Assembly (NCBI GenBank): GCA_017400135.1
Contig: JAFPVJ010000018.1
Location: 1-39,672 of the forward strand
DNA: 39,672 nt
Direction of reading: 5' to 3'
Source of the DNA: Bacteroidales bacterium
GTDB lineage: Bacteria > Bacteroidota > Bacteroidia > Bacteroidales > UBA932
The notes beneath the pieces were generated by a model. The model was not told where the DNA came from. It did not search any database and saw only the letters and a program-made list of their open reading frames with translations. Shown piece by piece: positions 8,258 to 24,204 of the stretch. Position numbers and translations under genes: made by a program. Every line of letters starts with the position of its first letter. Positions within the stretch are counted from its first letter, which is position 1.

Positions 8258-9025
8258 ATGAGAATATCTTTACTGCAAACGGCTCCGGTGTGGGGTGACC
8301 CCTCCCGGAGCCGTATTGAGATCAGCCAATGGCTGGAGGGCATGGCCCCGACGGACCTTCTGGTCCTGCCGGAGATGTTCTCCACCGGTTTCGTGACCCA
8401 TCCCGAAGGCGTCGCGGAGACTGAAGGAGGCGAAAGTCTGGCCTGGATGCAGGAAACCGCCCGCAAGCGGGGCTGCGCCGTGGCCGGAAGCTTGTCCGTC
8501 GGAACGGAGAACGGCTACCGCAACCGCCTCTATTTCGTCTTCCCGGACGGAAGCTACCGTTTTTACGACAAGCGCCATCTCTTCACCTACGGCAAGGAGC
8601 ATCTCCGCTACCAGGCAGGAGAGGAGCGGGTCATCGTCAGCTACGGCGGGTTCCGCATCCTGCTTCAGGTATGCTACGATCTCCGCTTCCCCGTCTTCGC
8701 CCGCAACCGCATCGTGGACGGCGTGCCGGATTATGACCTGATCCTGTATGTCGCCTGCTGGCCGGAATCCCGGATCGCGGCGTGGGACACCCTGCTCAGG
8801 GCCCGTGCCATCGAGAACGTGTGCTTCGTAGCCGGCGTGAACCGGGTGGGAGACGAGCCCGGAAACCATTATTGCGGACATTCCTGTTTGATCGGTCCGC
8901 GCGGAGAAGTGCTTTCGATCTGTAAGGAAAACGAAGCTTCCTTCGTCGAATATGAAATCAAAAAGGCGGATCTGGATTCATTCCGCGCCTCCTTCCCAGC
9001 CCTCTCCGACGCTGATAATCAGTAG
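8258..9025 (+). CDS. Nitrilase-superfamily omega-amidase (YafV/Nit2-like)
   Basis: The 255-residue product is a carbon-nitrogen hydrolase with the complete Glu-Lys-Cys triad: Glu39 in LVLPEMFSTGF, Lys105 in FYDKRHLF and Cys139 in LQVCYDLRFPVFARN. The LPEMFSTGF and CYDLRFPV segments are typical of the YafV/omega-amidase group, which hydrolyses 2-oxoglutaramate or 2-oxosuccinamate made by glutamine or asparagine transamination, or repairs deaminated glutathione. Which of these applies cannot be read from the sequence. It follows fba after 18 bases and is probably co-transcribed with it. No convincing terminator follows. Confidence 0.88.
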   Translation: MRISLLQTAPVWGDPSRSRIEISQWLEGMAPTDLLVLPEMFSTGFVTHPEGVAETEGGESLAWMQETARKRGCAVAGSLSVGTENGYRNRLYFVFPDGSYRFYDKRHLFTYGKEHLRYQAGEERVIVSYGGFRILLQVCYDLRFPVFARNRIVDGVPDYDLILYVACWPESRIAAWDTLLRARAIENVCFVAGVNRVGDEPGNHYCGHSCLIGPRGEVLSICKENEASFVEYEIKKADLDSFRASFPALSDADNQ

Positions 9026-9042
9026 ATTTTACTGGATTATTC

Positions 9043-9073
9043 TTGTTTTTTAAAAACATTTTTATTTACTTTG
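9043..9073 (+). promoter_or_regulatory. Probable promoter of the ilv operon
   Basis: A TTG at 9043-9045 and TACTTTG at 9067-9073 are 21 bases apart, a good spacing for the Bacteroidetes -33/-7 promoter. The -7 box is one base shorter than TAnnTTTG. The start would lie near 9080, about 20 bases before the leader peptide ATG. Confidence 0.5.
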
Positions 9074-9099
9074 TTTCCGGTAACGATTTGGAACCGAAA

Positions 9100-9153
9100 A
9101 TGAGAAACGTACTCGTCATTGCCCTGTCCCTGATTCTCCTTGTCTTGCAATAG
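9100..9153 (+). CDS. Branched-chain amino acid leader peptide (17 aa), ilv operon attenuator
   Basis: A short frame, ATG at 9100 and TAG at 9151-9153, encodes MRNVLVIALSLILLVLQ. Eleven of its 17 residues are Leu (6), Val (3) or Ile (2), the three end products of the operon that begins 84 bases downstream. The frame is followed by an antiterminator segment starting 3 bases after the stop and by a terminator hairpin, the layout of classical ribosome-mediated attenuation. The peptide is too short to be a signal peptide of a larger protein, because the stop comes at once. Scarcity of charged Leu, Val or Ile tRNA should stall the ribosome inside it and allow read-through into ilvD. There is no Shine-Dalgarno sequence, as elsewhere in the window. 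Confidence 0.85.
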   Translation: MRNVLVIALSLILLVLQ

Positions 9154-9156
9154 GCA

Positions 9157-9208
9157 CGGACTGGAAAGGCATGACGGTCGAAGATAAACCAACCTCCTTC
9201 TCAGTCCG
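9157..9208 (+). promoter_or_regulatory. Predicted antiterminator helix of the ilv attenuator
   Basis: CGGACTGGAAAGG at 9157-9169 can pair with CCTTCTCAGTCCG at 9196-9208 in a 13-position helix with only two internal mismatches. The right strand overlaps the 5' arm of the terminator (9191-9205), so the two structures exclude each other. The left strand begins 3 bases after the leader stop codon, so a ribosome that finishes the leader would cover it and favour termination. Confidence 0.75.
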
Positions 9209-9229
9209 GAACTGGAAGGAGGTTTTTTT
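9191..9229 (+). terminator. Intrinsic terminator of the ilv attenuator
   Basis: AACCTCCTTC (9191-9200) pairs perfectly with GAAGGAGGTT (9215-9224). The stem continues with CAGT (9202-9205) against ACTG (9211-9214) after a one-base bulge, around a 5-base loop. Seven T residues (9223-9229) overlap the end of the 3' arm. It lies 8 bases before the ilvD ATG, so it must be passed to express the operon. Confidence 0.88.
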
Positions 9230-9237
9230 AGTAGTGT

Positions 9238-11070
9238 ATGAAACATTCTCTTAGAAGCAGCGTCACCTTTGAGGGGCGCAGGATGGCAGGGGCCCGGGCG
9301 CTCTGGCTGGCCAACGGCATGAAGGAAGAACAATTCGGAAAACCTGTCATCGCCATTGCCAATTCTTTCACCCAGTTCGTTCCGGGCCACGTGCATCTGC
9401 ATGAGGCCGGACAGGTCGTCAAGGAAGAAATCGAACGCCTGGGGTGTTTCGCGGCGGAGTTCGACACCATCGCCGTGGATGACGGCATCGCCATGGGACA
9501 CGACGGGATGCTCTATTCCCTTCCCTCCCGCGACATCATCGCCGACAGCGTCGAGTACATGGTCAACGCCCATAAGGCCGACGCCCTGGTCTGCATCAGC
9601 AACTGCGACAAGATCACGCCCGGCATGCTCCTGGCCGCCATGCGGCTTAACATTCCCACGATCTTCGTGTCCGGCGGCCCGATGGAAGCCGGGGAACTCG
9701 GCGCCCTGAAACTGGACCTGATCGACGCCATGGTACAGTCCGCCGACGCCAGCGTGAGCGACAGAGAGGTCGCGGCGATCGAGCGTTGCGCCTGTCCGAC
9801 CTGCGGCAGCTGCTCCGGCATGTTTACGGCCAACTCGATGAACTGCCTGACGGAAGCGATCGGTCTCGCCCTGCCGGGCAACGGCACCGTCCTGGCCACG
9901 CATACGCTCCGCAAGGGACTCCTGATCCGCGCCGCCCGCCAGATCGTGGAGAATACCCGGCGCTACTACGAGGAAGGCGACGAATCCGTCCTTCCGCGCA
10001 GCATCGCCACCCGGAAAGCCTTCCTCAACGCGATGGCCCTCGACATCGCCATGGGCGGATCGACCAATACGGTACTCCATCTGCTCGCCGTGGCGAACGA
10101 AGCCGAAGCCGATTTCAAGATGGCCGACATCGACGCGCTCTCGCGCCAGGTCCCCTGCCTGTGCAAGGTCGCTCCCAACACGCAGAAATACCACATCCAG
10201 GACGTCGGCCGCGCCGGCGGAGTGATGGGCATCCTGGAGCAGCTCCTCGACGCCGGCCTGGTCGACGGCACCGCCGTGCGCGTCGACGGCCGCACGCTGG
10301 GAGAAACGATCCGCCGGTACAGCATCACGGTACCCGAGCCGGACGAGGACGCCATCGACCTCTATTCCGCCGCCCCCGGCGGCAAACGGACCACGCAGAT
10401 GGCCTCCCAGAGCTGCCGCTACAAGACTCTGGACACCGACCGGGAGGGCGGCTGCATCCGGAGCCGCGCCCACGCCTACACCCGGGACGGCGGCCTGTGC
10501 GTCCTTTTCGGCAACCTCGCTCCGGACGGATGCATGGTTAAGACCGCCGGCGTTGAAGAGATCCTGTGGCATTTCGCCGGACCGGCGAAAGTCTTCGATT
10601 CGCAGGAAGCCGCCTGTGACGGGATCCTCGGCGGAAAGGTGCAGAGCGGCGACGTCGTCGTCATCAACTACGAGGGCCCCAAAGGCGGCCCCGGCATGCA
10701 GGAGATGCTCTATCCCACCTCCTATCTCAAGTCGATGCACCTGGGCAAAGCGTGCGCGCTCATTACGGACGGGCGCTTCAGCGGCGGCACCTCCGGCCTG
10801 AGCATCGGCCACGTCTCCCCGGAAGCCGCTTCCGGCGGTCCCATCGCCCTGCTGCGCGACGGCGACCGGATCGAGATCGACATCCCCACCCGCAGCATCA
10901 ACGTGCTCCTCTCCGAGGCCGAGTTGCAGCAGCGCCGGGAAGAGGAAGAAGCCCGCGGAAAGAAGGCCTTCACGCCCCCGACCCGCGTGCGGGAGGTTTC
11001 CAAGAGCCTGAAAGCCTACGCCCGTATGGTGAGTTCCGCCGACAAGGGTGCGGTACGGATTATTGACTGA
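9238..11070 (+). CDS. ilvD: Dihydroxy-acid dehydratase
   Basis: IlvD dehydrates 2,3-dihydroxy-isovalerate and 2,3-dihydroxy-3-methylvalerate to the oxo acids that become valine, leucine and isoleucine. The 610-residue product has the iron-sulfur cysteine motifs SNCDKITPG (Cys123) and [18 protein letters not shown] (from residue 186), the metal motif [11 protein letters not shown] and the C-terminal [19 protein letters not shown]. Length is typical of the long (E. coli-like) group. The ATG at 9238 lies directly behind the attenuator hairpin. An AAGGAGG sequence lies in the terminator arm but is about 15 bases from the start codon. First structural gene of the operon; ilvB follows after 19 bases. 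Confidence 0.97.
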
Positions 11071-11089: not shown

Positions 11090-12790
11090 ATGATTACAGG
11101 ATCGGAAGCACTGTGGCAAGCGCTCATTGACGAAGGCGTGAAGACCGTTTTCGGGTATCCCGGCGGCCAGATCATGCCGGTCTATGACAGCCTGTGCAAA
11201 TATCGGGACCGGGTCCGCCACATCCTCGTGCGGCACGAGCAGGGAGCCATCCACGCCGCCCAGGGCTTTGCCCGCGTCAAGGGTGAGCCCGGCGTCGTGA
11301 TCGTCACCTCGGGACCCGGTGCCACCAATGTCATCACCGGCGTCGCCGACGCGATGACCGACTCCACCCCCGTGGTCGTCATCACGGGCCAGGTACCGTC
11401 CGCCGCCCTCGGCACGGACGCGTTCCAGGAAGCCGACGTCATCGGCCTGACGGCCCCGATCAGCAAGTGGAACTACCAGATCCGCTCGGCCGACGAGGTG
11501 ACCTGGGCCATCGCCCGGGCCTTTTATATCGCCCGCACCGGCCGGCCGGGGCCCGTGGTCCTGGACTTTACCAAGGATGCGCAGGTGGGTCTGACGGACT
11601 ATCATTTCGAGCCCTGCAACTTCATCCGCAGCTACATCCCCGATCCCAAGATATCGGAACAGGCGGTCAGCAAGGCCGTCGCCCTGCTCGATGAAGCCGA
11701 GCGACCCTTCGTCGTCTTCGGCCAGGGCATCCTGCTGGGGCACGCGGAGGATGAGCTCAAAGCCTTCCTCGAGAAGGGAGACATCCCCGCAGGCTCCACC
11801 CTCCTGGGCCTCAGCGCCCTGCCGTCCGATTTCCCGCTTTACCGCGGAATGATCGGCATGCACGGCAACATCGCCCCCAACCTGATGACCAACGCCTGCG
11901 ACCTGCTCATCGCCGTCGGCATGCGTTTCGACGACCGGGTGACCGGAACCGTCTCCACGTACGCCCGGCAAGCCAAAGTGATCCACATCGACATCGACAC
12001 CTCCGAAATCGGCAAGATCATTCCCGTGACGACGGGCATCCGGGGCGATGCGAAAAAGGTGCTCGCGCTCCTGACGGAACGGATGCAGCCCCGGAAGCAT
12101 CCGGAGTGGAACACCGCTTTCGACCGCTGCGACACGGTGGAGAAAGAACGGGTCATCGACCCGGAAGTCCATCCGTCCGACGGCCTGCTGCGCATGGGTG
12201 AGGTGGTGGACTGCGTGGCCGCTGCCTCCGGCGGGAACGCGGTCATCGTGACCGACGTGGGCCAGAACCAGATGATGGGCGCCCGCTATTCCCGCTTCCG
12301 CCAGACCCGGAGTTTCATCAGTTCGGGCGGCCTGGGCACGATGGGATTCGGCCTTCCGGCCGCCATCGGAGCCAAGGTGGGCGCCCCGGACCGGCCCGTA
12401 TGCCTGTTCGTCGGAGACGGAGGCATCCAGATGACCCTGCAGGAACTGGGCACCATCATGCAGGAAGGCGTCGGCGTGAAGATCGTGCTGCTCAACAACA
12501 ACTGGCTGGGCAACGTCCGCCAGTGGCAGGAGCTCTTCTTCGGATGCCGTTTTTCCGAGACACGCATGCTCAATCCCGATTATGCGATGATCGCCACCGC
12601 CTACGGGATCCGCTGCGCCACCGTGACGGACCGCCGGGAACTGGATGCGGCGCTGGAAACGATGTTTGCGGACGACCAGCCCTTCCTGCTGGACGTCCAT
12701 GTCCTTGAGGAAGGCATGGTCATGCCCATGGTTCCTCCCGGCAAGGGCATCCACGAGATCATGATTACCGAAAGCGAATGGTACAGTTAG
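11090..12790 (+). CDS. ilvB: Acetolactate synthase, large (catalytic) subunit
   Basis: This ThDP enzyme condenses pyruvate with pyruvate or 2-oxobutyrate, the first common step of valine and isoleucine synthesis. The 566-residue product has the three domains of the family: N-terminal PYR domain with the catalytic Glu in VRHEQGAIHAAQGFAR, the central FAD-binding domain (GMRFDDRVTG) and the C-terminal PP domain with the ThDP/Mg motif GDGGIQMTLQEL...NNNWLGNV. I start at the ATG at 11090 (MITGSEALWQAL); an in-frame GTG at 11048 would overlap ilvD and is unlikely. Its last codons overlap the proposed start of ilvN. Confidence 0.96.
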   Translation: MITGSEALWQALIDEGVKTVFGYPGGQIMPVYDSLCKYRDRVRHILVRHEQGAIHAAQGFARVKGEPGVVIVTSGPGATNVITGVADAMTDSTPVVVITGQVPSAALGTDAFQEADVIGLTAPISKWNYQIRSADEVTWAIARAFYIARTGRPGPVVLDFTKDAQVGLTDYHFEPCNFIRSYIPDPKISEQAVSKAVALLDEAERPFVVFGQGILLGHAEDELKAFLEKGDIPAGSTLLGLSALPSDFPLYRGMIGMHGNIAPNLMTNACDLLIAVGMRFDDRVTGTVSTYARQAKVIHIDIDTSEIGKIIPVTTGIRGDAKKVLALLTERMQPRKHPEWNTAFDRCDTVEKERVIDPEVHPSDGLLRMGEVVDCVAAASGGNAVIVTDVGQNQMMGARYSRFRQTRSFISSGGLGTMGFGLPAAIGAKVGAPDRPVCLFVGDGGIQMTLQELGTIMQEGVGVKIVLLNNNWLGNVRQWQELFFGCRFSETRMLNPDYAMIATAYGIRCATVTDRRELDAALETMFADDQPFLLDVHVLEEGMVMPMVPPGKGIHEIMITESEWYS

Positions 12791-13350
12791 CGATGGAAAA
12801 CGAAATCAAGGAATATACGGTGACCATCTACACCGAGAACCAGATCGGCCTCCTGGCCCAGATCACGAACGTGTTCACGCGCCACGGCCTGAGCATCTGG
12901 AGCCTGTCTGCGGGAGCGACTTCGATGGAGGGTATCCACAACATCACCATCGTGACCGCCGGTCCCGAAAAGAAGGTAAAGGAAAGCGTCCAGCAGATTG
13001 AAAAGCGCGTGGACGTGATCAAGGCTTTTTATTATACGGCCGACAAGATCGTGTACCGGGAACTGTGCCTGTACAAGGTCTCCACGCCGGCCCTGCTGGA
13101 GTTCGGCGACAGCGAGGCCCTGCTCAACCGCTATCACGCCCGCATCGTGGAGATGAACAAGATCTTCACCGTCATCCAGAAAACCGGTTATTCGGACGAG
13201 ACGGCCCGCCTCCACGACGAGCTCAAGAACGTGGGCGTGCTGCAGTTCGTCCGCTCCGGACGCATCGCCGTTTCCCGGGCCGAGCAGGAACCCGTGTTCA
13301 AGTTCCTGCGCAAGCGGGAAAAGGAAAGAAATCAACAACTTAACAAATAG
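12778..13350 (+). CDS. ilvN: Acetolactate synthase, small (regulatory) subunit
   Basis: The 190-residue product has an N-terminal ACT domain (YTVTIYTENQIGLLAQITNVFTRHG), which normally binds valine for feedback inhibition, and the C-terminal domain of IlvN/IlvH. It ends in a highly charged tail (KFLRKREKERNQQLNK). Two starts are possible: the ATG at 12778, overlapping the ilvB end by 13 bases, and the ATG at 12793 (MENEIKEYTV), 2 bases after the ilvB stop. Either allows translational coupling. The 12793 start would give 185 residues and no extra leader. It belongs to the same operon as ilvB and ilvC. Confidence 0.93.
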   Translation: MVQLAMENEIKEYTVTIYTENQIGLLAQITNVFTRHGLSIWSLSAGATSMEGIHNITIVTAGPEKKVKESVQQIEKRVDVIKAFYYTADKIVYRELCLYKVSTPALLEFGDSEALLNRYHARIVEMNKIFTVIQKTGYSDETARLHDELKNVGVLQFVRSGRIAVSRAEQEPVFKFLRKREKERNQQLNK

Positions 13351-13355
13351 ACACA

Positions 13356-14405
13356 ATGGCAAAGATCAATTTTGGCGGAGTCGAAGAAAATGTCGTGACC
13401 CGCGAGGAGTTTACCCTGGAGAAAGCCCGCGAAGTGCTCGCCGGCGAAACCATCGCCATCATCGGATACGGCGTGCAGGGCCCCGGACAGTCCCTCAACC
13501 TGAAAGACAACGGATTCAAGGTCATCGTCGGCCAGCGCAAGGGCAAGACCTACGACAAGGCCGTCGCCGACGGCTGGGTGCCCGGCGTGGATCTCTTTGA
13601 CATCGAAGAGGCCTGCAAGAGAGGTACGATCATCGAATACCTGGTTTCCGATGCGGCCCAGATCGCCGTATGGCCCACGGTCAAGAAGCACCTCACGCCC
13701 GGCAAGGCCCTGTATTTCTCCCACGGATTCGGCATCACCTACAACGACCGGACCGGCATCGTCCCTCCGGCAGACGTGGATGTCATCATGGTGGCTCCCA
13801 AGGGCTCCGGCACTTCCCTGCGCAGGCTTTTCCTGCAGGGACGCGGTGTCAATTCCTCCTACGCGGTCTATCAGGACGCAACCGGCCGCGCCCTCGAGCG
13901 CACCCTCGCCCTGGGCATCGGCGTCGGCTCCGGCTACCTGTTCGAGACCGATTTCAAGCACGAGGTCTATTCCGACCTGACCGGCGAGCGCGGCACCCTC
14001 ATGGGCGCCATCCAGGGCATCCTGTCGGCTCAGTACGAGGTGCTCCGCGAGCACGGGCACTCCCCTTCCGAGGCCTTCAACGAGACCGTCGAGGAACTGA
14101 CCCAGTCCCTGATGCCGCTCTTCGCGGAGAAGGGCATGGACTGGATGTACGCCAACTGCTCCACCACCGCCCAGCGCGGCGCCCTGGACTGGATGGGCCC
14201 GTTCCACGATGCGACCAAACCCGTGTTCGAGAAACTGTACAACAAGGTGGCCAGCGGCGAGGAGGCGCAGATTTCCATCGACGCCAACTCCAAGCCGGAC
14301 TACCGCAAGGGCCTGGAAGAAGAGCTGAGGCAGCTCCGCGAGAGCGAACTCTGGCGCACCGGCGCCGCCGTGCGCAAGCTCCGTCCCGAAGAAATCGACC
14401 GTTAA
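13356..14405 (+). CDS. ilvC: Ketol-acid reductoisomerase
   Basis: IlvC isomerises and reduces acetolactate or acetohydroxybutyrate with NAD(P)H. The 349-residue class I enzyme has the Rossmann motif IIGYGVQGPGQSLNLKDNG (from residue 35), VAPKGSGTSLRRLF, the Mg-binding motif DLTGERGTLMG and the knotted C-terminal domain. The strand after the Rossmann loop reads VGQRKGKT; the basic residues there suggest NADPH preference, as in most KARIs. It starts 5 bases after ilvN ends; leuA/cimA follows after 10 bases. Confidence 0.96.
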   Translation: MAKINFGGVEENVVTREEFTLEKAREVLAGETIAIIGYGVQGPGQSLNLKDNGFKVIVGQRKGKTYDKAVADGWVPGVDLFDIEEACKRGTIIEYLVSDAAQIAVWPTVKKHLTPGKALYFSHGFGITYNDRTGIVPPADVDVIMVAPKGSGTSLRRLFLQGRGVNSSYAVYQDATGRALERTLALGIGVGSGYLFETDFKHEVYSDLTGERGTLMGAIQGILSAQYEVLREHGHSPSEAFNETVEELTQSLMPLFAEKGMDWMYANCSTTAQRGALDWMGPFHDATKPVFEKLYNKVASGEEAQISIDANSKPDYRKGLEEELRQLRESELWRTGAAVRKLRPEEIDR

Positions 14406-14415
14406 GCATCTGAAG

Positions 14416-15939
14416 ATGATCGAAATCCTGGACACCACCCTCCGTGACGGCGAGCAGACCGCCGGTGTCTCGTTCAACCCGGACGAGAAACTGGCGATCG
14501 CCCGCCTGCTCCTGGAGGAGCTGAAGGTCAACCGGATCGAAGCGGCATCGGCGCGGGTTTCCCGCGGCGAGTGGGATTCCTTCGCCAAGATCTGCGCCTG
14601 GGCGGCCGCCTGCGGGAGGATCGGTGCCGTGGAGGCGCTGGGATTCGTCGACGGCGGAGAATCGGTGGACTGGATCGTCTCGGCGGGAGGGCGCGTGATG
14701 AACCTCCTGACCAAAGGTTCGATCCGGCATCTGTCCGGGCAGTTGAGGAAAACCCCGGAAGAACACCGGGACGACATCCTCCGGGACATCGCCCTGGCCG
14801 TCTCCAAGGGTCTGGAAGTCAACGTGTATCTGGAAGACTGGTCCAACGGGATGGCGGACTCGCCGGAGTATGTATTCTTCCTGGTGGATGCTTTGAAGGA
14901 AGCACCGGTCCGGCGCATCATGCTCCCCGACACCCTCGGCATCCTGAATCCCACGCGGACCGGCGACTATTGCCGGACGATGACCGAACGCTGGCCCGGA
15001 CTGCATTTCGACTTCCATCCCCACAACGACTATGACCTCGCGGCCGCCAACGCCTACGAGGCGGTACGTGCGGGCGTACAAGGGCTCCATACGACGGTCA
15101 ACGGCCTGGGCGAGCGGACCGGCAACCTGCCCGTTTCCAGCGCCCTGGGCATCCTCAACGACCACCTGAAGGTGGACAACACCCTGGATGAAAGCCGCCT
15201 GATGCACGTCTGCCGCTATGTGGAGACGATTTCGGGCGTGCGCATCCCTGCCAACAAGCCCCTCGTGGGCGAGTTCGCCTTCACCCAGACGAGCGGGGTC
15301 CACGCCGACGGGGACCGGAAGGGCGGCCTCTACCAGAATGCCCTCCTCCCGGAGCGCTTCGGCCGCCACCGGCACTATGCCCTCGGCAAGACCAGCGGCA
15401 AGGCGAACATCATCAAGAACCTGGAGACCCTGGGCATCACCCTGACGCCGGAGCAGATGAAGCAGGTCACGGCCCGCGTCGTCGAGCTCGGTGACAAGAA
15501 GGAAAGCCTCAGCCCGGAAGACCTGCCCTTCATCGTGGCCGACGTCCTCAAGGGGCATTTCTCCACCGTTCCCGACCGCATCCGCATCGTCAACTATACC
15601 CTGCAGCTGACCCGCGGCATGCGTCCGATCGCCCACCTCCGCATCGACATCGACGGGGAGGAATATGAAGAGTCCGCGGCCGGAGACGGCCAGTACGACG
15701 CTTTCATGAAGGCGCTCTGGAAGATTTACGACCGGCTGGGACGCCGCCATCCGACACTGACGGACTATGTGGTCAAGATTCCTCCGGGAGGAAAAACCGA
15801 CGCCCTCGTGGAGACGACGATTTCCTGGGACTGGGACGGCCACGGCTTCAAGACCCGCGGCGTGGATTCGGACCAGGCCGAGGCGGCCATCAAGGCCACG
15901 GTCAAGATGCTGAACCTGATTGAAAACAAAATGATTTGA
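14416..15939 (+). CDS. 2-isopropylmalate synthase / citramalate synthase family protein
   Basis: The 507-residue product is an HMGL-like TIM-barrel acyl transferase that condenses acetyl-CoA with a 2-oxo acid. It has the signature LDTTLRDGEQTAGVSF near the N-terminus, the metal motif HPHNDYDLAAANAYEA and NGLGERTGN, the linker HADGDRKGGLYQ and a C-terminal LeuA-type regulatory domain (about residues 370-507) in which inhibitor normally binds. It could be LeuA (leucine) or CimA (pyruvate to citramalate, giving isoleucine without threonine deaminase). No leuB, leuC or leuD is in the operon, and the context is ilv genes only, which slightly favours CimA; I do not assign a symbol. It is followed within 8 bases by ilvE. 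Confidence 0.86.
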   Translation: MIEILDTTLRDGEQTAGVSFNPDEKLAIARLLLEELKVNRIEAASARVSRGEWDSFAKICAWAAACGRIGAVEALGFVDGGESVDWIVSAGGRVMNLLTKGSIRHLSGQLRKTPEEHRDDILRDIALAVSKGLEVNVYLEDWSNGMADSPEYVFFLVDALKEAPVRRIMLPDTLGILNPTRTGDYCRTMTERWPGLHFDFHPHNDYDLAAANAYEAVRAGVQGLHTTVNGLGERTGNLPVSSALGILNDHLKVDNTLDESRLMHVCRYVETISGVRIPANKPLVGEFAFTQTSGVHADGDRKGGLYQNALLPERFGRHRHYALGKTSGKANIIKNLETLGITLTPEQMKQVTARVVELGDKKESLSPEDLPFIVADVLKGHFSTVPDRIRIVNYTLQLTRGMRPIAHLRIDIDGEEYEESAAGDGQYDAFMKALWKIYDRLGRRHPTLTDYVVKIPPGGKTDALVETTISWDWDGHGFKTRGVDSDQAEAAIKATVKMLNLIENKMI

Positions 15940-15947
15940 CAAAGACT

Positions 15948-16988
15948 ATGGAAGCCATTGACTGGAAAACCCTGGGATTCGACGCGTACAGGACGCGCAC
16001 GGTCATCCTTTCCCACTACAAGGACGGGCGGTGGTCCATTCCCGAAGCGACGGAAACCTTTTCGTTCACCTTCGATCCCTTCGCGCAGGTCTTCCATTAT
16101 GCGATTTCCTGTTTCGAGGGACTGAAGGCCTTCCGGCAGAAGGACGGACGCGTCGCCATGTTCCGCCCAGACCAGAACGCCGCCCGTATGCAGCGGACGG
16201 CGGACTACCTGGGCATGCCCTGCCCAGACGAAGAAATGTTCTTCAAAATGTGTGAGGAATGCATCCGCGGCAACCTGGAATTCCTGCCACCCTACGGCTT
16301 CGGAGCCTCGATGTACCTGCGCCCCCTGCTGGTCGGCATGCATCCCCAGATGCAGCTCGTGCCCTATCCGGAGGCCATTTTCGCCGTCATGTGCGCCCCC
16401 GTTGGATCGTATTACGGCGCCCATCTGAAATCATGCGCCGCCGTCATTCCCGGCAACTATGACCGGGCCGCGCCGAAGGGGTCCGGCAGCTACAAGATCG
16501 GCGCCAACTATGCCGCCACTTTCAAGCCCTACAAGTTCGCGCACGAGCAGGGCTATGCCGAACTCCTGTATCTGAATTCCTCCACACGGGAGTTTGTCGA
16601 CGAGTTCGGTTCTTCCAACTTCTTCGGCATCAAGGGCAACAAGTACGTCACTCCCCTCTCAGACAGCGTCCTGCCTTCCATCACCAACAAGACCCTGCAG
16701 CAGGTGGCCCTGGATTTCGGCATGGAGGTCGAGCGCAGGCCCGTCCCGCTGGAGGAACTGGCGACCTTCGAGGAAGTGGGCGGCTGCGGAACGGCCGTGG
16801 TGATCACGCCGCTCTCCCATATCGACATCAAGCCGGTGCTGGAGGAAGTGACCGTTTCCCGGGTATTCCGATTCTGCCCCGACGGCGAGGTGGGACCCGT
16901 GTCGAGGAAACTCTACGCCCGCATCACGGCCATCCAGGCCGGTGAAGCGGAAGACACCCACGGGTGGTGCCGATTCGTGGAGGTATAA
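15948..16988 (+). CDS. ilvE: Branched-chain amino acid aminotransferase
   Basis: IlvE makes the last step: it moves an amino group from glutamate to the branched-chain oxo acids. The 346-residue product is a fold-type IV PLP enzyme of the eukaryote-like BCAT group, with YAISCFEGLKAFR, the arginine motif MYLRPLLVG, the Schiff-base lysine in SYKIGANYAA (Lys183), the glutamate-containing TREFVDEFGSSNFF and the phosphate-binding GTAVVITPL. I use the ATG at 15948; an in-frame TTG at 15936 lies inside the preceding gene. Its TAA (16986-16988) lies within the A-run of the terminator, so it closes the operon. Confidence 0.95.
   Translation: MEAIDWKTLGFDAYRTRTVILSHYKDGRWSIPEATETFSFTFDPFAQVFHYAISCFEGLKAFRQKDGRVAMFRPDQNAARMQRTADYLGMPCPDEEMFFKMCEECIRGNLEFLPPYGFGASMYLRPLLVGMHPQMQLVPYPEAIFAVMCAPVGSYYGAHLKSCAAVIPGNYDRAAPKGSGSYKIGANYAATFKPYKFAHEQGYAELLYLNSSTREFVDEFGSSNFFGIKGNKYVTPLSDSVLPSITNKTLQQVALDFGMEVERRPVPLEELATFEEVGGCGTAVVITPLSHIDIKPVLEEVTVSRVFRFCPDGEVGPVSRKLYARITAIQAGEAEDTHGWCRFVEV

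Positions 16989-17016: not shown

Positions 17017-17018
<2 letters not shown>
16987..17018. terminator. Bidirectional terminator between ilvE and the GH2 gene
   Basis: A-run, ACCGGGA, a 6-base AAATTTA-type loop, TCCCGGT and a run of seven T residues form a stem that works on both strands. The ilvE stop codon (16986-16988) and the GH2 stop codon (17017-17019, minus strand) are part of its A and T tracts, so one 32-base element ends two converging transcripts. Confidence 0.9.

Positions 17019-24204
<7,186 letters not shown>

Follow-up and report, generated by a model that had tools for sequence, protein, structure and literature searches.

The ilv operon and its flanking genes

The window, that is, the whole stretch of 39,672 nucleotides analysed here, carries on its + strand an operon with the gene order ilvD-ilvB-ilvN-ilvC-cimA-like-ilvE. 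The dihydroxy-acid dehydratase gene ilvD (9238..11070; NF009103, 1067.6 bits; TIGR00110, 787.9 bits) is the proposed first regulated gene. It is followed by ilvB (acetolactate synthase large subunit, 11090..12790; TIGR00118, 653.7 bits), ilvN (acetolactate synthase small subunit, 12778..13350; TIGR00119, 92.9 bits, above the cut-off), ilvC (ketol-acid reductoisomerase, 13356..14405; TIGR00465, 313 bits), a citramalate synthase-like gene of the cimA/leuA family (14416..15939; the best model, NF042433, scores 617 bits against a cut-off of 950) and ilvE (branched-chain aminotransferase, 15936..16988; TIGR01123, 304.8 bits). These downstream genes make the amino acids that the leader described below would sense. 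The closest named ilvD found is that of a Bacteroidales MAG from goat rumen, with 79% identity in the best segment. The leuA gene of this genome is located elsewhere, not in the ilv operon, and the stretch read upstream of it holds no leader frame or hairpin.

On the 5′ side of the leader, and on the same strand as ilvD, lies a gene resembling amidohydrolases (8258-9025; its NF007757 score of 243.9 bits falls just short of the cut-off). This gene and the ilvD start at 9238 enclose a probable promoter, a short frame rich in codons for branched-chain amino acids (BCAA), and a leader RNA with two exclusive folds. Beyond ilvE, two adjoining long genes on the minus strand (17017-23222) have translations that, by eye, resemble each other and beta-galactosidases.

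The initial annotation had placed a promoter before the frame. A probable promoter can indeed be assigned to 9043..9073 of the + strand, with TTG at 9043-9045 and TTACTTTG at 9066-9073, which we take to resemble the -33/-7 pattern of Bacteroidetes, with one mismatch to the TAnnTTTG box; a sigma-70 scan of the window, however, returned no promoter on the leader strand. Inspection by eye of five close relatives reveals a promoter-like stretch at the matching place.

The leader frame

The leader frame (9100..9153, ATG to TAG, + strand) would encode the peptide MRNVLVIALSLILLVLQ. Re-reading the sequence bore out the earlier count of 17 codons, 11 of them for Leu, Val or Ile; all of the BCAA codons stand at position 16 or before, and codon 17 is Gln. 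None of 2000 shuffles of the 200 nt 5′ of ilvD, with dinucleotide composition kept, matched the BCAA richness of this frame. Translation in Bacteroidetes starts largely without Shine-Dalgarno sites. Pairwise comparison of six close leaders gave 93 codon differences, 67 of which are either synonymous (41) or swaps among Ile, Leu and Val (26).

Predicted helices of the leader RNA

Three segments and a terminator, all on the + strand, can be recognized in the leader RNA. Segment 1 (9114..9123), inside the leader frame, is the 5′ side of a protector helix and pairs with 9168-9176. Segment 2 (9157..9169), the 5′ strand of the antiterminator, is overlapped by the protector too; it begins at 9157, three bases past the end of the leader stop at 9153, just as had been annotated, and pairs with segment 3 (9196..9208), the antiterminator 3′ strand, which overlaps the terminator in its 5′ arm and loop. 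The predicted intrinsic terminator (9191..9229) consists of a hairpin at 9191-9224 and a T-run at 9223-9229. Its parts are AACCTCCTTC (9191-9200), the bulged T 9201, CAGT (9202-9205), a loop (9206-9210), and ACTG plus GAAGGAGGTT (9211-9224). The stem, earlier called perfect, is in fact one of 14 bp with a single bulged base (T 9201), and it is probably because of this bulge that a simple terminator scan of the window listed no terminator at the leader. The seven T residues end 8 bases before the ilvD ATG at 9238, and the pairing of 9157-9169 with 9196-9208 overlaps the hairpin at 9191-9224, so that antiterminator and terminator exclude each other; both points agree with the initial annotation.

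The leader RNA between 9101 and 9236 is predicted to fold more stably than all of 200 shuffles (z -3.0), and for the stretch 9151-9232 alone 5 of 200 shuffles were as stable (z -2.1). The protector helix (9114-9123/9168-9176), which the earlier account did not include, can in folding block the antiterminator in an untranslated leader, and the untranslated window RNA is predicted to fold into protector plus terminator. Support for the protector among leaders is modest: 18 of 67 beat nulls made with synonymous codons at the 5% level, and the protector of the window leader (L001) was matched by 32 of 300 such nulls.

The effect of the ribosome was modelled on partial transcripts ending before the 3′ arm of the terminator, on the assumption that a ribosome covers 12 nt from the A-site codon. 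Ten codons in the range 4 to 16 were tested, and with the ribosome at any of them the antiterminator fold was kept (-17.8 to -23.5 kcal/mol); it was largely lost with the ribosome at codon 17 (-8.0 kcal/mol) or at the stop (-6.1 kcal/mol). Among the 64 ilvD leaders defined in the next section, the antiterminator lost a mean of 14.2 kcal/mol when the ribosome stood at the stop rather than at the middle BCAA codon, with a loss of at least 5 in 56 of the 64. Measured against a ribosome at the last BCAA codon, the mean loss at the stop was 6.6 kcal/mol, with at least 3 in 38 of the 64. The antiterminator strand of L168, L178 and L179 lies inside the end of the leader frame, so translating to the frame end disrupts the antiterminator in these three. 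When the full-length window RNA was folded, the terminator formed at every ribosome position tested, and the switch must therefore be kinetic.

Conservation and covariation of ilvD leaders

The comparison began with 193 ilvD loci, of which 187 had an ilvD start and 182 were long enough, leaving 170 after dereplication. Among the loci left out were L102 and L131, which were wrongly placed, and L148, L150, L155, L169, L175 and L190, which had no start. The alignment of related upstream regions that had been called for revealed a BCAA-rich frame (p<0.01) in 77 of the 170. The antisense strand gave 3, and 20 shuffle sets averaged 2.95, the highest reaching 8. With the limit set at p<0.001 there were 51 of 170, compared with 0 antisense and a shuffle mean of 0.25. 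No BCAA frame at p<0.01 was found in 93 of the 170, same-genus regions included.

A hairpin with a T-run, of -12 kcal/mol or lower and ending at most 60 nt from ilvD, is present in 72 of the 170 regions, and in 68 of these 72 a BCAA frame, by a lax criterion, stands just 5′ of it. Shuffling the upstream part reduced the 68 to a mean of 7.35 (maximum 14 in 20 sets), and reverse-complementing it to 2. Leaders that keep the hairpin and lack the frame, which the initial annotation had named as evidence against attenuation, are thus rare (4 of 72): L014 is unexplained, L093 comes from Desulfobulbaceae, in L110 the hairpin is preceded by N bases, and L176, from the same genus, has a divergent neighbour gene.

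Covariation was examined in the A1 alignment, made of 25 of the 35 class-A (GGACTGGGAAGG type) leaders printed and picked by eye. Both helices covary across these chosen leaders, as had been proposed. The antiterminator (11 pairs) is paired in 93.4% of cells, and six pairs, in 16 cells, are changed on both sides, a result reached by 0 of 500 shuffles; sliding it by one column lowers pairing to below 60%. For the terminator the best register gives 87.1% of cells paired and 23 cells doubly changed (0 of 500 shuffles), this register being the neighbour of one that failed and having been chosen after the slide table was viewed. The failed one came from L168 and lay one position off; 76.9% of its cells were paired, and 93 of 500 shuffles did as well, which is not significant. 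The A1 shuffles ignore the relatedness of the rows.

A set of 64 leaders was drawn from the 170 by requiring a frame at p<0.01 and a hairpin of -10 kcal/mol or lower starting less than 80 nt past the frame. Their composition is I 21.5%, V 22% and L 17.6%, compared with A 3.4%, F 1.9%, G 3.5% and M 0.7%, the low share of other residues being partly built in because the leaders were selected for Ile, Leu and Val. Tested against spacer shuffles, the antiterminator duplex of the 64 has a mean z of -2.47, with 40 of 64 passing at 5% and 30 at 1% (Fisher 2e-35). The 24 that miss the 5% mark include L013, the class-A leader L124 and members of a second class (GGAATCC type: L029, L140, L171, L181, L185, L186); the window's own leader just misses it, with 11 of 200 spacer shuffles.

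Distribution

Frame and hairpin occur together in Phocaeicola faecalis (L046; frame p about 0.01), Heminiphilus faecis (L049; p 0.02), Saccharicrinis sp. (L075) and Marinifilum sp. D714 (L086). Ten loci bear the title Prevotella or Prevotellaceae, and two of them (L052, L054) have a frame at p<0.01. Within the "same phylum" loci (L226-L255, the 30 best-scoring ones, not dereplicated, for which frames alone were examined) such frames were found in 16 of 30, compared with 1 antisense; MSISTINLPSIILLGIIILSLLGILITVIS is an example of a BCAA-rich frame upstream of ilvD in this set. The 20 "same class" loci (of 31 matched; again frames alone) gave 1 of 20 in the sense and 4 of 20 in the antisense direction, and there is therefore no signal.

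Some same-genus loci have ilvD running divergently from a gene that, by eye, is aspartokinase-like (L130, L136, L137, L160, L161 and others), and there no frame was seen; about 133-144 bases separate the two genes in the five loci named. Control of ilvD in these leaderless genus-mates must differ. Across same-genus genomes an ilvD match is present in 71 of 200 and leuA above the cut-off in 40 of 121, so that BCAA synthesis seems unevenly spread over the genus, though many of the genomes are incomplete.

A histidine leader was also sought in the window's own genome. The codon pattern His-His-His-x-His occurred 30 times, compared with 1 in the reversed control, but the stretches read contained no short frame like a His leader, and hisG (TIGR00070) had no match in this genome. 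TGGTGGTGG gave 43 matches, as against 35 in the reversed control.

Covariance model matches and leaders of other genes

Within the window the A1 covariance model has a single match, the leader element itself, at 95.4 bits. Searched against 101 same-genus genomes it returned 25 places in 23 genomes, and 24 of the 25 places precede ilvD or leuA. By coordinates 21 matches are 5′ of ilvD, 14 of these being training sequences, and three (G161, G165, G217), none of them in training, are 5′ of leuA. Two of the three leuA matches, MRFSSVLVLSLLILALP and MSFSSVLALSLLILALP, are strongly Leu-rich leaders.

Nine leuA leaders were available, from eight of 30 leuA loci plus L292: the three model matches, and six read by eye, in which Leu content may be favoured because they were picked as frames before a hairpin. 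Together the nine contain 44 Leu, 16 Ile and 6 Val, whereas the 64 ilvD leaders contain 245 Leu and 605 Ile plus Val (Fisher 1e-9), the Val share falling from 22% in ilvD leaders to 4% in leuA leaders. The three model-found leuA leaders alone give 16 Leu to 11 Ile plus Val (p 0.002). Read from these sequences, leader codon content follows the pathway, with Ile, Val and Leu before ilvD and a weighting towards Leu before leuA.

Upstream of leuA in L298, L305, L306, L316 and L320 short Leu-weighted frames are followed by a hairpin of the CTCCGGAGTTTC type. By sequence these five form a candidate second attenuator-like class before leuA.

A further model match (L293; G228:C72:598-740, minus strand; 46.6 bits, E 4e-6) stands, with the leader MIFGMVIILLLVGLVM, in front of an XRE-cupin gene; its genome, G228, gave no ilvD match. 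The element might control the making of BCAA out of branched-chain fatty acids, which is a guess resting on a single case. Nine of 121 genomes have homologues of this XRE-cupin gene, at 10 places in all. Upstream sequence was considered at three of these places, the other seven homologues being distant: the leader stands before the G228:C72 copy, a close homologue (L328, in G245) has none in the part read, and for the second G228 copy (L336) the upstream sequence is too short. By eye, the L328 homologue of the G228 XRE-cupin frame runs on for 693 aa into an AMP-ligase-like part.

Proposed regulation and alternatives

We read the window leader as a classical ribosome-mediated transcription attenuator of the ilv operon, and assign this reading, made from sequence and modelling, a probability of roughly 0.92. 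Its basis is the sequence itself, conservation, covariation, the predicted folds and the link to BCAA genes. The classical ilv layout named in the initial annotation gains support from the conserved frame, the covarying helices and the scarcity of hairpins without a frame (4 of 72). We infer that the leader is transcribed and translated, that ribosomes stall on it, and that its termination responds to starvation, as follows. RNA polymerase would make the leader while a ribosome translates the 17-codon peptide. With ample charged Leu-, Val- and Ile-tRNA the ribosome would reach Gln17 or the stop and cover segment 2, leaving segment 3 free for the terminator, and transcription would stop near 9229. 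Were one of these tRNAs uncharged, the ribosome would stall at a codon up to 16, and segments 2 and 3 would pair before segment 4 is made, blocking the terminator and allowing the ilv operon to be transcribed. In an untranslated leader segment 1 would pair with segment 2, giving termination by default.

The 17-residue peptide is hydrophobic, as expected if it were a small membrane peptide or type I toxin with its own terminator and ilv control were incidental. We consider this very improbable, given that the recurring residues of the 64 ilvD leaders, a set selected for Ile, Leu and Val, are specifically these three, that leaders before leuA shift to Leu, that 24 of 25 model matches precede BCAA genes, and that a covarying antiterminator would be without a role. 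The exclusive terminator and antiterminator are equally the layout of a riboswitch platform, and PMC8632094, in the part available, mentions weak candidates for riboswitches before ilvD of Veillonella and ilvB of Leptospira. Control of the same terminator by a metabolite or a bound protein, with the frame as a by-product, is nevertheless very improbable: apart from the pairing arms, no block between the frame and the terminator stands out as conserved in the A1 alignment, a frame accompanies the hairpin in 68 of 72 regions, and Rfam 15 gave no family at gathering in the window (the best sub-threshold hit over 9000-9300 being OrzO-P, E 0.87) and one tRNA only on 37 related loci.

The element does stand between two genes of one strand, where the hairpin could simply end transcription of the amidohydrolase-like gene and the frame be due to chance. 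This is the least probable of the alternatives, against which speak a frame matched by 0 of 2000 shuffles, covariation of the antiterminator along with the terminator, a position 8 bases from the ilvD start, and related elements before leuA as well.

If ribosome-mediated attenuation is the true function, a form of control that is textbook in Proteobacteria would also act on BCAA synthesis in one of the main groups of gut bacteria, where it would imply coupling of transcription and translation. The odds seem to us about even that leader-peptide attenuation is an old, mobile control of BCAA synthesis across Bacteroidota (ilvD in Bacteroidales and other classes, Leu-weighted leaders at leuA, perhaps the XRE-cupin gene where no ilvD was found), with tight coupling of ribosome and polymerase. 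The analysis yields a covariance model, a set of naturally occurring variants and a ready-made contrast between ilvD leaders with Ile, Val and Leu and leuA leaders weighted towards Leu.

Relation to known attenuators

The leaders of enterobacterial ilvGMEDA and ilvBN combine a BCAA-rich peptide, alternative antiterminator and terminator, and a protector helix upstream of ilv genes. The window leader resembles them in its peptide, alternative hairpins and ilv genes, and has a candidate protector; unlike them, it belongs to another phylum, and its operon begins with ilvD, with the terminator 8 bases from the start codon. Leader peptides for BCAA genes also occur in C. glutamicum, of the Actinobacteria, and S. 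aureus, of the Firmicutes. The available part of one account describes a leader-peptide attenuator with three hairpins before the BCAA genes ilvBNC of C. glutamicum (PMC11857589), alike in principle, though in another phylum and before other genes. In S. aureus, according to the portion of PMC5794164 at hand, a leucine-rich attenuator peptide controls BCAA synthesis; here too a leader peptide serves BCAA, but in a different phylum and acting beside CodY. The mechanism itself is already known, and what would be new is an ilv case, with its function inferred from sequence, in many Bacteroidales.

In the accessible part of their paper, Naville and Gautheret (2010) state that, as far as they knew, demonstrated leader-peptide systems were confined to Proteobacteria and Actinobacteria, to which they add Firmicutes (PMC2965389). 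Ryan (2020) describes short frames in B. thetaiotaomicron 5′ UTRs as "reminiscent of leader peptides"; the word ilv is absent from the main text, as far as this was accessible (PMC7366714). The initial annotation had called such leaders little described in Bacteroidetes. This holds for ilv, no attenuator of which was found for this phylum in the literature searched (outside it, Lopatovskaya (2010) and Vitreschak (2004) may contain such a prediction); it is less apt for leaders in general, as Bacteroid-trp (RF01692), a predicted cis-regulatory trp element, was listed in 2010 (PMC2864571, in the part available).

Within the phylum, Bacteroid-trp is the nearest Rfam element to the window leader; it has a short frame in the matches examined, and differs in having Trp codons in place of BCAA codons. 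Its covariance model has no match in the window or its own genome, and has matches in 6 of 79 genomes of the window's family, 2 of them above the cut-off. Four of the six matches were examined and all have short frames holding WW or WWW; in at least L337 and L338 a hairpin with a T-run follows the frame, as judged by eye.
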